Under the pieces are notes generated by a model. That model ran no database searches. It had not been told where the DNA came from and saw nothing but the letters and a program-made list of their open reading frames with translations. The position numbers and the translations under genes were made by a program. A DNA stretch of 40,629 nt from Geminocystis sp. M7585_C2015_104 (GTDB taxonomy: Bacteria > Cyanobacteriota > Cyanobacteriia > Cyanobacteriales > Cyanobacteriaceae): NCBI GenBank assembly GCA_015295805.1, contig DVEF01000028.1, positions 1-40,629 on the forward strand, in the 5' to 3' direction. Positions 14,168 to 34,808 of the stretch are shown one piece after another. Each line of letters starts with the position of its first letter. Within the stretch, counting starts at the first letter, position 1.

Positions 14168-14268
14168 TCAGGCTTTTAAAAACTAGAGTTACCCCTTTTC
14201 CCCACCAATCATACCATATTATCCCCCTCACTTCTCCCGGCTATAATTTATTTTTCTAATGGTAACTA

Positions 14269-15531: not shown

Positions 15532-15970
15532 ATCTCTATTGTATTGAGTCTGGGATTTCTCAGTAACCAAATCTATTTTCTCCCAATCACCGCCACACCA
15601 CCGGTTTGGTTAGACTTAGAATGGCTAGCCTCAGATTACATAATTTTCCCCATATAAGTACCCACTGCACTATTTTTTTGTAAAGAAAGATAATATTGGG
15701 GGACTTTAAAGCAATTGTAATAAACTGCATTTATTGGTTTAATTAAACAACTTTCTAGGCTTTCTATTTTACTAACAGCTTTTAGTAGTGGCTAATAGGA
15801 TATAGGGAGTAGGATGTAGGGAGTAGGAGGGGGCGATTTTGCTTTTTTTTTCTGTATTGCATATTCCTGCATTGCAGGCGGGGGGTAATCTTATTACAGT
15901 CACCCCTCTACCCTCCCCTCACCCTTATCCAAGGCTTCAGTTATTTAGTTAGCTAGATCGACTGATATTT
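15532..15970. other. intergenic region with a 14-bp tandem repeat and a palindrome
   Basis: Two copies of GGATRTAGGGAGTA lie side by side at 15798-15825, followed by a third partial copy GGAGGGGG. A 12-bp perfect palindrome GTTTAATTAAAC sits at 15737-15748. A poly-T run and TATTGCATATTCCTGCATTG follow near 15845-15880. No open frame is convincing on either strand. The region holds the promoter of the tRNA nucleotidyltransferase gene at its left end and the 3' flank of the DUF1822 gene at its right end. Confidence 0.5.
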
Positions 15971-27218: not shown

Positions 27219-27263
27219 TTAACTTGTAAAATAAATACTACATAAAAAGGACTGACACAAACT

Positions 27264-29921: not shown

Positions 29922-30362
29922 TCTTTTTTTACTACTCTCCCTCTTCCCCCCTTTTTTTTGTTAATTAATGTTTAGCTTATTGTAACATCCTCCCCCCCAA
30001 AAATCTCTCTATCCCTCTCCCTTCCCCCTCTTTTTTGTAACAAAAACTATTTAAGTAATTTTAAGTAAACAAAAAAGGGCAGGAGCCCCCTCCGAATACC
30101 ATTTTATCTCTTGAAAGAGAAAATGTCAAGGGGAAAAGGAAAAGAGGAGGGCTAAAAGTAAAACAAAAGTTAAAAGAGATTCAAAAATGAGAAAAAGGGG
30201 TAAACTGAAGTAAGAGGTGTGGAAAGGAGGAAGGAGAAGCAAACGGGCGGCGAAAAGGTAAAGAGAAAAAGTAAGGGTGAAGGGGAACTATGTTAGAGTA
30301 AATGTCAGAAATTTCATCCAAAGGGAGATGAAGGTAAAAAAGGGTTAAAAAGAGGCGAGAAA
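29922..30362. other. cheB-cheR intergenic region: pyrimidine-rich then purine-rich tract
   Basis: On the plus strand 29925-30045 is strongly C/T-rich (runs such as CTCTCCCTCTTCCCCCC and CTCCCTTCCCCCTC), while 30110-30362 is strongly A/G-rich with almost no C or T (GGAAAAGGAAAAGAGGAGGG, GGAAAGGAGGAAGGAGAAGC). The two could pair as an imperfect long stem in RNA or form unusual DNA structure. GGGC-AGGA-GCCC at 30075-30086 is a small hairpin inside the switch point. The A/G tract is the cheR leader and contains many ribosome-site-like GGAGG strings. No gene is seen. Confidence 0.55.
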
Positions 30363-31883
30363 ATGAATACAGAAATAATTTCTCCAAGGCTAAGAGAGGA
30401 GTTTGTCAGCCTTATTGCCCAACAGACGGGGATAGAAATAAAAAGTCAAAACTACGGAGCAATGGGGGATTGTATAATAAATAGGATGCGGGAATTAAAC
30501 CTGCCAAACCCGGAAAGCTATTACGAATTATTGGCGTCTGAAACCAGCGAAAGCGAAGAGGAATGGCAAAGATTTGTATGTCTAATAACTAATAAAGAAA
30601 GCTATTTTTTTAGGGATAAAGGACAATTTAAACTGCTACGACAAGTGATTTTACCCGAATTAATCCGCAACAATCAGAGAATAAAAACGTTACGTATTTG
30701 TAGTGCGGGATGTTCTACTGGACAGGAACCATATTCTGTGGCTATCCTTATAAGGGAATTAATACCTGATTGGGAAGACTGGCAAGTTGATATTATAGGA
30801 CTAGACATTAACAGGGAATCCCTAAAACAAGCGCAAAAAGCACTATATAATACGTGGTCATTTCGACAGGTGGAAGAGGAAATAAAACGGCGTTATTTCA
30901 AGAATCTGGGAGGCTACTATCAACTGAATGAAGAAATAAAACGATTGGTGAGATTCAGACAATTCAATCTTGTTAGGGATGAGATGCCAAATGCCGAGAT
31001 GGGATTGAGTGACATGGATTTAATTATCTGTAGGAATGTGTTTATTTACTTCACCGAGACGGCTATTGATAAGGTGGTAATGAAATTTTATAACACCCTC
31101 AGACCCAATGGTTATTTAATCACAGGACATGCAGAATTGAGCAACAATCAGGTGAAAGTCTTTCAAACGAAAATTTTCCCAGAATCGGTAGTATATCAAC
31201 GCCGTGGTGGCAAATTACCCGCAGCCAGTGTCAGCGTCTCCAAGACAAACACCACTACAATTCAGCCTAAACCCCAAACTTTTAGATTTTCTACACCCCA
31301 ATCCCCACCTCCATCCCCGCTAGTAACTATGGCTATCCCCCCCGCCAATTCCCCCAAACCAATTATCAACCCTCCACCTCCCATCACTTTTGTGGAGGAG
31401 GAATTGCTGGCGGAGGCTAGAAGACTAATTCAGCAAAAATCCTATTACCTAGCCGAAAAAAAGTTACAGACCATTTTAAGACAATCCCCTCACCATTATA
31501 CTGCCACCTATTTGATGGCGGAAATCAATGCCAATCTTGGCAGGTATGATGTTGCTAGGAAATGGTGTCACGCCGCTATGTCTTTAGACAATTTGCAAGT
31601 AAAACCCTATTTACTCCTGGCACAAATAGAGGAGGAAGAGGGGAATATAGAAGAAGCCAAGGAAGCCTTAAAGAGAGTTATTTATCTCCAACCAGATCAC
31701 TTTATGGCCTATCTTAGTCTAGCAAATTTATATCAAAATAGTGGGGATATGGACAGAAGTAAGAAATTGAGAAACACAGCCTTAAAAATTTTAGAAAGGA
31801 TGCCAAAGAATCACAAGATAGAAGAATTAGATGACATCTCTGTAGGTGACTTGTTGAGACAGTTACAAGACATTTCGGCTTAA
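30363..31883 (+). CDS. cheR: CheR-type protein methyltransferase with TPR domain
   Basis: CheR methylates MCP glutamates with SAM. The N-terminal helical part is residues 1-75, followed by the methyltransferase: ITNKESYFFRD, LRICSAGCSTGQEPYSVAI (SAM-binding), IIGLDINRESLKQAQKALY, LIICRNVFIYF and GYLITGHAELSNN. After a proline-rich linker (about 290-365) come at least three TPR-like repeats (SYYLAEKKLQTILRQSP, NLGRYDVARKWCHAAMSLD, EEGNIEEAKEALKRVIYLQP). TPRs probably mediate docking to partners since the MCP here has no tether peptide. ATG 30363 follows AGAGGCGAGAAA. It belongs to the che cluster with cheB upstream. Confidence 0.94.
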   Translation: MNTEIISPRLREEFVSLIAQQTGIEIKSQNYGAMGDCIINRMRELNLPNPESYYELLASETSESEEEWQRFVCLITNKESYFFRDKGQFKLLRQVILPELIRNNQRIKTLRICSAGCSTGQEPYSVAILIRELIPDWEDWQVDIIGLDINRESLKQAQKALYNTWSFRQVEEEIKRRYFKNLGGYYQLNEEIKRLVRFRQFNLVRDEMPNAEMGLSDMDLIICRNVFIYFTETAIDKVVMKFYNTLRPNGYLITGHAELSNNQVKVFQTKIFPESVVYQRRGGKLPAASVSVSKTNTTTIQPKPQTFRFSTPQSPPPSPLVTMAIPPANSPKPIINPPPPITFVEEELLAEARRLIQQKSYYLAEKKLQTILRQSPHHYTATYLMAEINANLGRYDVARKWCHAAMSLDNLQVKPYLLLAQIEEEEGNIEEAKEALKRVIYLQPDHFMAYLSLANLYQNSGDMDRSKKLRNTALKILERMPKNHKIEELDDISVGDLLRQLQDISA

Positions 31884-33507
31884 TGGCGAGGGGTTTCGCT
31901 ATAACACAGGCTATATATGAAACCATGGCTGACTAACTGCCACTTTTATTATTCTGACACCATAACAAGCCCAATGGTAGAAATAAATGGCTATAGTTTG
32001 CTTTAGTCAAATACCAGGGGAGACTCTCTTGCTGAGAGAGATTATTTCCTAGCATGGGAGTATAACTAATAAGTAGAAGTGAAACAATGAGACATTCCGG
32101 AAAGTGGCACAATAGGCTAATTAACACAGTGGGTGGGGAGGTGATTGTTTAAGATAGTAAGTCAAAAGGGGTTTTAATCTGACGAGGGAGGCGGTTTAAG
32201 ACAGTTAAAAGGTGTTAAACCCTAAACGGATTCTAACATTATCCATTTCCCGACAGAACTAAATGACACACATGGGGGAGACTATTAAAAAAAAAATCTA
32301 CTTGTTGACAAGATTGAAAGAAGTTTTAGCTAGAGGAGAGTGATGGTGTGAGAGGATTAAACGAGATTGTTGCCGAGATGGTTTCTGCCGCAGAGTGATT
32401 TGCTTGACACTATTGATAGAGGTTTCAGCCTAACTAACGCCAAGGTGAGAAGGTGTCTCAGCTGGGGAGGTGATTATCCGGCTAAGTGGTGAAATAATTA
32501 GACAGGTTAAATGACATTCGGCTGGGTGGTTGACGTGATTTACAACAGACTAGTTTACAAGAGGCTAAAAGGGTTTGTTACCCAGTTACAACAGATTATA
32601 AGGTTAAACAATATTTGGCATAGTAGAAAACAGTAAGACACATCAGCGTGATACCGAGGAAAGCTACTTGTGGAGATGGTTACAGGAGGTTATAGTTTTG
32701 GGGTGGGAGAAGGTGAGGATTTGACAGAATTACAAAAGGTTTTGGCTAGGAGAAAGGCGACTGTGTCTGATGGAATTAAATGATATTATTGCGACATACA
32801 TACTGGGAGACGCTAACTAAAAACTGAAAAGGGTTAGAAGGTGTTTGTAAGGAGGGGGTAATATGGTCGCAAGTTGAAAAAAAGATGTTTTGGCATCAAG
32901 GGGAATGATATTGTTTCCTAATGGCAGAAAGCAGTAAGATATAAGTTAGAGGCAAAAAGTGATTGTTTGACAAGGTTTAATTTGCCTAATGCCATGGGGG
33001 GTGGTGTTAAAAAGTGTTTCCGAAGGAGGTGACTATCTGATGGAGGGGGATAGGTTGAAGAGGAGGCAGGAAACAACGAGATGTTTACACTGGATGCCAT
33101 GATAAGCCGAAATAGAGACGGTTATAAAACGTTTCAGGCTAATACCATCTGGAGTTAGTTAAAAAGTGTTTCGGCTAGAAGAGAGATGATTTTATGATAG
33201 AAGAGGGCTAATTATATGAGGGAATTGAATTAGGAGGTGTTGCGGGGTTAAGTAGATGAAAGGGGGGATAAGGTTATTGACTAGCTATTTGCTTGACACA
33301 GAGGGGAGGTGGTTGATTGACTAGTTGGAATTGTTTCTCCTTGATGGCAAGGATGGCAAAAAAGACTCACTTTCCCACCCAGTCAGACAGTCACAGGGTA
33401 TTTTAAGCAAAAGTGCCAGGGGAAACAAACTGGCTAACACAGTTAAAAAATGTTTTAGGCTGATAAGCAGAAAAATAGTTGCTAGCGGCGGTTGTAGGAG
33501 GAGGGAA
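31884..33507. repeat. degenerate ~142-bp tandem repeat array in the cheR-cheW gap
   Basis: The 1.6-kb gap has no credible gene. From about 32.2 to 33.47 kb it is built of same-orientation, diverged copies of a unit. One marker, GTTAAAAAGTGTTTCGGCTA and variants, recurs near 32312, 32444, 32730, 32873, 33006, 33158 and 33442 (steps of 131-158, or about twice 142). A second marker, GGCAGAAAGCAGTAAGA and variants, recurs near 32621, 32923, 33065 and 33344. TTGACA hexamers occur at 32305, 32404, 32721, 32967 and 33294. The plus strand is C-poor and G/A/T-rich. The array ends just before the cheW ribosome site. Confidence 0.65.
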
Positions 33508-34611
33508 ATGGCTTACTATCTAATTTTCAACCACAGTAGTTTAACTTATGGGTTGCCTGCAGAGGAAATTCAAGAAGTATTTTTTATCCCCGAATTGACA
33601 CCAATTCCCGACGCACCGGAAGACATGGTGGGAGTGATAAACTTAAGAGGGGAAATTCTGCCAATAATGGATTTAAATATTCGTTTTGGCTATGAGACGA
33701 ATGGATACCAAATAAGTGACACCCTTGTAGTGGTAAGGCATGAAGAATTAAAAGTGGGATTAATAACTAACCATGTAGATGATGTAGGCATAATTGAGGA
33801 GGAAAACATCACTCCCGAGTTGCCTTATGACAGGGGAAGTGAGGAATTTAAACAGGAGAAGTTTATTAAGGGTGTAGCAAAAAAGGAAGACAAGATTATC
33901 TTTTTGCTAGACACAGAAAAGCTGCTAAGATATGTAGAATCCCAAACACTATCTCTAGAATTAGACTTATTTCAGTTGCCTGCCGATGGGGTGGAGAAAG
34001 GGGAAAGAAGAGAAGACACAACCACAGAGACAGAGGAAAGTCAACAGCAGAGAAAATACAGAAAAACAGACTTTTTCCCCAACATAACAGAGGATGAGAA
34101 GAGGATACTCAGAGAAAGAGCAAGCCGTTTGAGACAATCAATACAATTCAAAGACTTCACCGGTTTAAAACCCGTTGCCGTATTTAGTCTAAACCAAGAG
34201 TATTTCGGAGTAGAATTATCCCTGGTGAGGGAATTCATAAAATTCAAGAAATACACTCCAATCCCCTGCACCCCTGAGTTTGTGGTGGGTAACATTAACC
34301 TTAGGGGGGAGGTGATTACCCTAATAGACATTAGGAGGGAATTCAATTTAACACCAACTTCTTTGACAGAAGAAACACCGGCAATAGTTGTGAATGTAGA
34401 CGGGATTGTAGCCGGCATAGTCGTAGACGAAATCAAGGAAATTGCCATGATTAATCCTCAACAGTTACAAAAGGGAGAAAGGAGTGAAGAGGTTAAAATC
34501 CAGCAGGAGTATTTACAGGGGGTAATCCCCTATCAAGAGAAAATGCTAGCCATTATCAACCTAGCAGAAATCATGAGTAGTGGCAAGCTGATTGTGGATG
34601 AAGCGGTTTAG
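33508..34611 (+). CDS. tandem CheW-domain coupling protein
   Basis: CheW couples receptors to CheA. This 367-aa protein has two CheW domains in a row: residues about 1-145 (MAYYLIFNHSSLTYGLPAEE, VGVINLRGEILPIMDLNIRF, LVVVRHEELKVGLITNHVDD) and about 215-367 (GLKPVAVFSLNQEYFGVELS, VGNINLRGEVITLIDIRREF, GIVAGIVVDEIKEIAMINP), joined by an acidic linker rich in E, T and Q. ATG 33508 has a very strong ribosome site (GGAGGAGG, 4-6 nt spacing). An open frame reaches back to TTG 33325, but that part is repeat-derived and not CheW-like. It is the last gene of the che cluster, 1.6 kb from cheR, so it may have its own promoter. Confidence 0.92.
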   Translation: MAYYLIFNHSSLTYGLPAEEIQEVFFIPELTPIPDAPEDMVGVINLRGEILPIMDLNIRFGYETNGYQISDTLVVVRHEELKVGLITNHVDDVGIIEEENITPELPYDRGSEEFKQEKFIKGVAKKEDKIIFLLDTEKLLRYVESQTLSLELDLFQLPADGVEKGERREDTTTETEESQQQRKYRKTDFFPNITEDEKRILRERASRLRQSIQFKDFTGLKPVAVFSLNQEYFGVELSLVREFIKFKKYTPIPCTPEFVVGNINLRGEVITLIDIRREFNLTPTSLTEETPAIVVNVDGIVAGIVVDEIKEIAMINPQQLQKGERSEEVKIQQEYLQGVIPYQEKMLAIINLAEIMSSGKLIVDEAV

Positions 34612-34645
34612 GAGGGTGGGGGTTATTGGGGAAGCTGATCGTGTA

Positions 34646-34662
34646 CGAATGATAATCATTCG
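34646..34662. promoter_or_regulatory. Fur-box-like palindrome
   Basis: CGAATGA-TAA-TCATTCG has 7-bp perfect inverted arms around a 3-nt centre and fits the Fur consensus core (ATGATAATCATT, 14 of 19 positions over the full box). It lies 35 nt past the double-CheW stop, between two gene ends, followed by AGGAGG at 34671-34676 but no open frame of note. A 13-nt core is shared with the site at 10783. Confidence 0.42.
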
Positions 34663-34808
34663 CATAATCCTAGGAGGAAGTACTGTGTAACAAATGTTGA
34701 CAAATATGTTGTGAAAGAAGAAGTGAAAAAATGCCAACAAGAGTAAATTAAAGTCAAGACTTCAAGACTTTATTGGCAAAACCGGTAGAGGGACATGGTG
34801 GTATATTT

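Follow-up and report, generated by a model that had tools for sequence, protein, structure and literature searches.

The gap between cheR and cheW in a chemosensory cluster of Geminocystis sp. M7585_C2015_104 raises the question of what fills it and how it came about. A preliminary description, made from the sequence alone, reported a degenerate tandem repeat with a step of about 142 nt and named an old tandem expansion, a family of regulatory RNA modules and a recombination hot spot as possible explanations. The array is real and unusual-looking, and it is explicable: most likely, it is an old, decayed tandem array derived from a gene end.

The chemosensory cluster and its gaps

The window analysed is the whole 40,629-nt contig DVEF01000028.1 of Geminocystis sp. 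M7585_C2015_104, whose own genome (G000) comprises 2.82 Mb in 108 contigs and is 96.9% complete. G001 is a sister species of the same genus; at the cheR–cheW locus it corresponds to the public MAG Cyanobacteriota bacterium SRBZ.bins.94.201705, with 10,001 bases identical. The cluster lies on the + strand from about 24.6 kb and encodes a CheA-like hybrid kinase, an MCP, CheB, CheR with TPR, and a protein with two CheW stretches. The parts of the cluster considered here are the following:

29922–30362, + strand: cheB–cheR gap, 441 nt, with one copy (29950–30132) of a unit that is tripled in G001
30363–31883, + strand: cheR, CheR methyltransferase with TPR, 506 aa (Pfam CheR, 2.9e-52)
31884–33507, + strand: cheR–cheW gap, 1,624 nt, with a degenerate direct-repeat array
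33508–34611, + strand: cheW-type gene with two CheW stretches, 367 aa (Pfam CheW, 3.7e-60)

Three orthologues of cheR, 60–81% identical, were found. The start of cheW was placed at 33508 by alignment of homologue starts, and not at the in-frame TTG at 33325. From this TTG, the mechanical cheW ORF extends 61 codons into the array (33325–33507); automatic annotation may place the start of the gene too early. Apart from this upstream extension, the cheR–cheW gap contains no ORF of at least 100 aa. The gap is C-poor (12.9% C) with a GC skew of 0.37, which peaks at 0.53 on the C-poor, purine-rich strand.

The length of the gap differs between relatives. It is 2,687 nt in G001 and, corrected for the final codons of cheR, about 325 nt in G004 and 105 nt in G005, the gap of the window being about five times as long as that of G004. 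Five relatives from other genera have cheR next to cheW, at a distance of about 50–330 nt. A genome-wide nucleotide search with the gap, a check that the preliminary description had proposed for the unit, revealed no gap-wide match elsewhere in the own genome (blastn). The same search against plasmids gave none, and against 39 relatives it gave one short match, located at a gene start in G002.

Direct repeats and their core element

The best direct self-alignment of the cheR–cheW gap has a score of 62, the highest of 100 dinucleotide shuffles being 39; it joins the following pair, and another self-alignment pairs 32305–32379 with 32721–32797.

32954–33063, + strand: one member (110 nt) of the best internal pair, about 73% alike to its diverged copy at 33110–33221

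Exact 9-mer pairs number 41 (shuffle median 11, 95% level 20), and exact 12-mer pairs number 8 against a 95% level of 1. In the inverted self-comparison, the best score of 30 equals the shuffle median of 30, and the summed score of 393 is slightly above the 95% level of 386 (40 shuffles). The self-repeat z of the gap, 9.1, is the highest among 40 gaps of 400–2,500 nt in the own genome.

Direct repeats beyond shuffles in a non-coding gap are thus confirmed, and the step of about 142 nt is not. At lag 142, the base autocorrelation has a z of 2.0, which is under the shuffle maximum; matches at lags 136–150 number 5 vs. 7.0 after block shuffling; the positions of the core sites described below have no significant period; and a tandem-repeat search, also proposed beforehand, revealed no 142-nt array in the gap (Tandem Repeats Finder). 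Lags of 409–440 are enriched in the gap taken together with the last 45 nt of cheR (71 matches vs. 11.7, with none of 200 block shuffles as high). This range is about three times 142 and is perhaps the source of the multiples of the step that had been noticed. In the G001 gap, the lag of about 425 is borderline (28 vs. 12.8, p 0.05), and a lag of about 504 is stronger. As for the two sequence markers on which the earlier period was based, the former does recur, with GTTAAAAAGTGTTTC at 33006 and 33158 and a related word at 33442. The latter is found at 32924; its 11-mer common to the G001 gap is one of four such 11-mers, a number within the shuffle range (maximum 5). The span originally given, 32203–33470, is covered by the array, which extends wider, from 31841 in the last codons of cheR to 33471.

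The repeated element is a core of about 30 nt with the consensus GAcaGTTAaAAGatGTTTtagCttgATG, present in the gap in about 23 degenerate same-strand copies at an irregular spacing of 29–171 nt. The core profile was iterated on the gap alone, with a threshold set by shuffles, and was re-run from six seeds cut out of the gap; it finds 24 sites, with 1.4 expected by chance. Since one of these sites overlaps its neighbour (32482 overlaps 32501), the number of copies is given as about 23. A free EM motif search ended in ill-defined purine motifs, and the iterated profile was used instead. A joint two-gap profile was very loose (57–63 sites) and served only as a second score for gene ends. By strand, 24 matches are forward and 2 are reverse. 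The core is very degenerate, with 0.5 bit per position and about 60% agreement per site, and its conservation around 14 sites drops within about 8 nt on either side. The copies are listed below with their profile scores:

31841–31890, + strand: copy 0, the 3′ end of cheR with the stop codon and 7 nt (24.1–25.2 bits)
31986–33285, + strand: other core copies at 31986, 32280, 32352, 32873, 32965, 33000, 33069 and 33252 (6.9–15.8 bits)
32157–32233, + strand: core copies at 32157 and 32200 (19.6 and 21.4)
32309–32342, + strand: core copy, in our reading the head of the second higher-order unit (22.5 bits)
32408–32708, + strand: core copies at 32408, 32441, 32482, 32501, 32561, 32626 and 32675, some of them weak (7.4–18.8 bits)
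32725–32758, + strand: core copy that heads the third higher-order unit, 416 nt past the second (22.5 bits)
33117–33187, + strand: core copies at 33117 and 33154 (23.1 and 24.5 bits); 33154 heads the fourth unit, 429 nt past the third
33319–33471, + strand: core copies at 33319, 33386 and 33438, the last one before cheW (16.8, 15.9 and 24.7 bits)

We read the array as higher-order units headed at 31857, 32309, 32725 and 33154. These units of about 425 nt are clearly alike only in their first 100 nt or so. Compared as wholes, one of the six pairs aligns better than its rotations and the other five do not; an alignment of the four blocks was unconvincing over their full length.

In both species, the core clusters at this single locus. 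The profile trained solely on the window gap, with its threshold lowered to three quarters, was applied to the G001 gap and gave 22 sites (200 shuffles: mean 3.7, maximum 10) plus 2 on the reverse strand, and six profiles seeded with single copies find 12–21 sites there vs. means of 0.8–3.3. In the window gap, there are 24, 22 and 18 sites at 6, 9 and 12 bits, respectively. Outside this gap, a 424-kb sample of the own genome is at the level of chance at 9 bits (12 vs. 14 expected in gaps, 60 vs. 49 in coding sequence) and at 12 bits (1 vs. 3.1 in gaps, 13 vs. 13 in coding sequence), with a slight excess at 6 bits (86 vs. 69 in gaps, 239 vs. 213 in coding sequence). A whole-genome sequence-only model, which scored the best 150 of about 900 candidates per genome, placed all four of its reported matches in G001 inside the cheR–cheW gap, and 13 of the 15 in the own genome in the gap or at the end of cheR. 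Among the best 150 candidates scored in each of six other genomes of the family, 2–17 weak matches are scattered, none of them in the G004 or G005 gap. Among these candidates, the best match outside the genus (E 0.024, in G004) equals single copies of the array in strength; it is thus the clustering that counts. A dispersed repeat family (SDR, REP, MITE), for which copies at many loci would be expected, was rejected in view of the blastn searches and of this concentration in the sample and among the scored candidates.

Despite the common core, the cheR–cheW gaps of the window and G001 align weakly, with a score of 66 and a shuffle maximum of 60. Six of nine other syntenic gaps align above all shuffles and are 73–89% identical; the gaps at 14168–14268, 15571–15970 and 27219–27263 do not align. 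The second of these is a 400-nt gap between syntenic genes (317 nt in G001). At fourfold-degenerate sites, 69 of 105 are identical between the two species in cheW and 80 of 133 in cheR; therefore, unconstrained sequence may be near the alignment limit anyway.

The end of cheR as presumed source and the alternatives

The end of cheR itself is a copy of the core. Scored with six profiles trained on the gap only, it ranks first among 290 gene ends with 24.1–25.2 bits, and the second one reaches 9.8–11.3. The 24-mers from the final 50 nt of cheR have 97 overlapping matches in the gap vs. 3.2 expected, the first rank among 30 blocks, and 96 vs. 4.3 in the G001 gap. A smaller excess is found for cheR blocks located 350–500 nt before the end (up to 22 vs. 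6.8), and one cheW block is also in excess (22 vs. 3.9). In G001, the gene end adjacent to the array is a weaker copy: it scores 14.5–15.9 bits, below the cheR of the window, and its last 50 nt give no clear excess (10 vs. 5.1; 11 vs. 4.4), another block of this gene being in excess (44 vs. 6.6). The end of cheR in G004 encodes a similar peptide and scores 3.3–8.4. The L..LQ peptide near the C-terminus of CheR is common to all four aligned sequences, which makes an ancestral coding end and a derived array probable. We infer that cheR is the source of the repeats and not a bystander.

Tandem duplication of the cheR 3′ end and its spacer, followed by decay and turnover, probably built the array. 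The 3′ end of cheR would have been duplicated in tandem together with the following spacer, giving units of about 420–440 nt, with shorter duplications nested inside them. The copies carry stop codons and would never have been needed as protein; they would have decayed to the present agreement per site, the core being the recognisable remainder of each copy. Further duplication and loss would reshape the array in each species, so that the two gaps would share the core yet hardly align. In this respect, the old tandem expansion considered earlier is supported, with the cheR 3′ end and its spacer as the likely source. Nearly all copies lie on the strand of the presumed source gene in both gaps, as expected from duplication.

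There is a tension in the age of the array. If it were older than the split of the two species, its pieces should align like most neighbouring gaps, and they hardly do; if it were younger, the copies should be more alike than the best pair is. This would be reconciled by turnover through duplication and loss or by faster change in repeats. The differences in gap length and content between them suggest turnover.

The abrupt fall of conservation outside the core exceeds what a long unit would show after simple decay and counts against duplication with decay. Together with the dominance of one orientation and the presence of the core at the same place in two species whose gaps otherwise hardly align, it would fit a functional cis element kept in about 20 copies, of which the end of cheR is the first: a protein-binding site or an RNA signal in an intercistronic leader tuning the CheR:CheW stoichiometry. 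We regard such an element as unlikely. Among the best 150 candidates scored, no second locus was found in the genome, unlike the sites of most regulators; the core is very degenerate; and promoter-like sites are not in excess in the gap, with none on the + strand. A weak terminator-like stem is located at 32024–32040; the region 31500–33700 contains four terminator-like stems vs. 1.3 in shuffles, but two of these entries are one and the same stem, another falls within cheR and another is on the opposite strand. It is more doubtful still that selection keeps some 20 loose 30-nt elements as a long cheR–cheW control region, a binding-site or RNA-decay array setting the ratio of CheR to CheW, with a motif recruited from the 3′ end of cheR.

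The folding data also bear on the RNA signal and on the regulatory RNA modules of the preliminary description, which they do not bear out. In sliding windows of 160 nt, covering each strand of the two gaps, the local folding of the window gap is near the shuffle level (mean z −0.16, minimum −2.3); in the G001 gap, the mean z is −0.36, the minimum is −4.0 and 9% of the windows are below −2. A fold of 808 nt at 32700–33507 has a z of −5.7 (20 shuffles), which the local windows do not reproduce and which is possibly caused by uneven composition. The one core hairpin tested has no covariation (pairing 0.584 vs. 0.606 permuted; 0.613 vs. 0.619 in G001). A search of Rfam with 30300–34700 gave nothing above the threshold and two sub-threshold matches, both within cheR. 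A structured RNA or riboswitch was rejected, given that there is neither an Rfam match nor a consistent folding excess over shuffles. This gap thus gives no sign of a regulatory function of the array, and the duplicated copies may well have none; the absence of signs is not a proof of absence.

Several copies, by eye, read L-Q/K-E/K-V-L-A in one frame, and the end of cheR reads LLRQLQDISA, as would be expected of a decayed protein-coding repeat, for example, a C-terminal extension of CheR with LQEVLA-like repeats. This is very improbable: the conservation of the core has no codon-position pattern (0.60/0.61/0.59 and 0.57/0.64/0.60), stop codons are not depleted in either gap (129, with a 5–95% shuffle range of 108–128, and 163 in G001, with a range of 158–183), and in the five relatives of other genera, cheR and cheW are separated by about 50–330 nt. 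Integrases often target the 3′ ends of genes, and the match to cheR extends through the end of the gene to a few bases beyond the stop codon. Scars of a mobile element or of a site-specific recombinase with the cheR 3′ end as the attachment site are nevertheless, like a diversity-generating retroelement, to be given very little credence, the copies being so many, so closely spaced and with no ORF of 100 aa between them. As for the retroelement, no reverse transcriptase (PF00078, E 0.001) was found in the own genome at its completeness of 96.9%, and 3 of 14 control genomes match; this candidate was rejected. Finally, the skewed composition of the gap could yield look-alike words on a C-poor, purine-rich strand. 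That composition alone explains the array is scarcely credible: the repeat and core tests exceed dinucleotide shuffles, and a strongly skewed gap (L071 480–1681) is not self-repetitive (z −1.5).

The array resembles several known systems. Like bacterial minisatellites or VNTRs, it consists of local head-to-tail copies in a gene gap, at one locus, and is variable between relatives. One source counts as minisatellites those motifs that are 20 bp or longer, occur two or more times and are at least 90% identical (PMC2884548). The best pair of the array is far less alike and the spacing is irregular, and therefore Tandem Repeats Finder misses the array. The likeness to CRISPR arrays lies in the same-strand copies of about 30 nt with unlike sequence between them. 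However, CRISPR repeats are near-identical and evenly spaced, and the cheR–cheW copies are neither, and they match a gene end. Short non-coding intergenic repeats also include REP/BIME, HIP1 and the small dispersed repeats (SDR) of cyanobacteria, the last reportedly treated by Elhai et al. in 2008. SDR, REP/BIME and HIP1 are scattered over the genome, whereas the cheR core clusters at a single locus. Partial tandem gene duplication with decay is a general mechanism, and here too, a gene end and its spacer appear to be copied downstream in the same orientation, with a younger form in the cheB–cheR gap of G001; the array differs in its many rounds and its tiny coding part, the last 14 codons or so. 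No description of such arrays was found in the available excerpts of the literature.

Tandem copies in the neighbouring gap and at other loci of the genus

The neighbouring gap of G001 contains tandem copies of a gene end with its spacer. The cheB–cheR gap is 441 nt in the window vs. 915 nt in G001, where it contains three tandem units with steps of about 255–284 nt (L034 8657–9571). The first of them begins 27 nt before the stop codon of cheB, and the copies are identical at 139 of 181 and 126 of 169 positions. The best alignment of each of the three to the window falls on the same place, about 29950–30132 (132/170, 121/160 and 123/150), with much lower next-best scores; therefore, the window has one copy. 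In the window, this unit starts 29 nt after the stop codon of cheB, and the inclusion of the gene end is found in G001 only.

Self-repetitive long gaps (z > 4) are also more frequent in the genus. They make up 5 of 40 in the own genome, 13 of 35 in G001, none of 40 in G004 and 1 of 32 in G014, that is, 18 of 75 in the genus vs. 1 of 72 in two sister genera (Fisher 2.8e-5). Without the window and the cheR–cheW region of G001, the pooled counts are 14 of 65 vs. 1 of 72 (1.5e-4). When gene 3′ ends are compared with the sequence downstream, z exceeds 4 for 5 of 115 in G000, 4 of 100 in G001, 2 of 181 in G004 and none of 136 in G014 (reversed control: 1/115, 0/100, 1/181 and 1/136). The pooled difference, 9 of 215 vs. 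2 of 317, is a modest excess (Fisher 0.009). For gene starts compared with the sequence upstream, the numbers in G000, G001 and G004 are 1/171, 2/144 and 2/208 (reversed: 5/171, 1/144 and 1/208). The controls of the gene-end comparison are imperfect, and fewer shuffles gave 6/115 in G000. Five of the higher-scoring genes of the own genome and G001 carry a repeat of a portion of their 3′ region 82–652 nt further on; in one of them, the repeat covers −95 to +37 around the stop codon, with 84 of 110 positions identical.

The genus thus holds both young and old examples, with which the birth and decay of non-coding DNA inside operons could be followed. In a small bacterial genome, the distance between genes may increase in this plain way, by copying of a gene end with its spacer and subsequent rot, and the rotted copies can look to the eye like a new regulatory family. 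Degenerate repeats inside operons should therefore not be read as regulatory RNA without a sister species for comparison.

Young tandem arrays are found in further gaps of G001: a 36-nt unit repeated 21 times, the 18-nt unit GGTTTATCCCTATCCCTA repeated 24 times and an 83-nt unit repeated 3.3 times (L079 13517–14838, L079 16552–16990 and L093 12122–12754). According to Tandem Repeats Finder, tandem repeats make up 9.8% of non-coding bases in G014 (sample L114–L133), 0.8% and 3.0% in the genus members and 0.75% in G004. Since the share in G014 is above that of both genus members, many tandem repeats as such are not special to the genus.

Two other gaps may be mentioned. Downstream of cheW in G001, there is a non-coding region of 2 kb, G-rich on the cheW strand (L034 1164–3233, skew 0.48), which is mildly self-repetitive (z 3.6–5.4) and in which the cheR core is near chance. 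In contig C65 of the own genome, a purine-rich gap of 1.6 kb between convergent genes (L069 10045–11645, self-repeat z 4.9–7.7) contains several imperfect ATAATGATTATCATT-like words, which we take to resemble Fur boxes.
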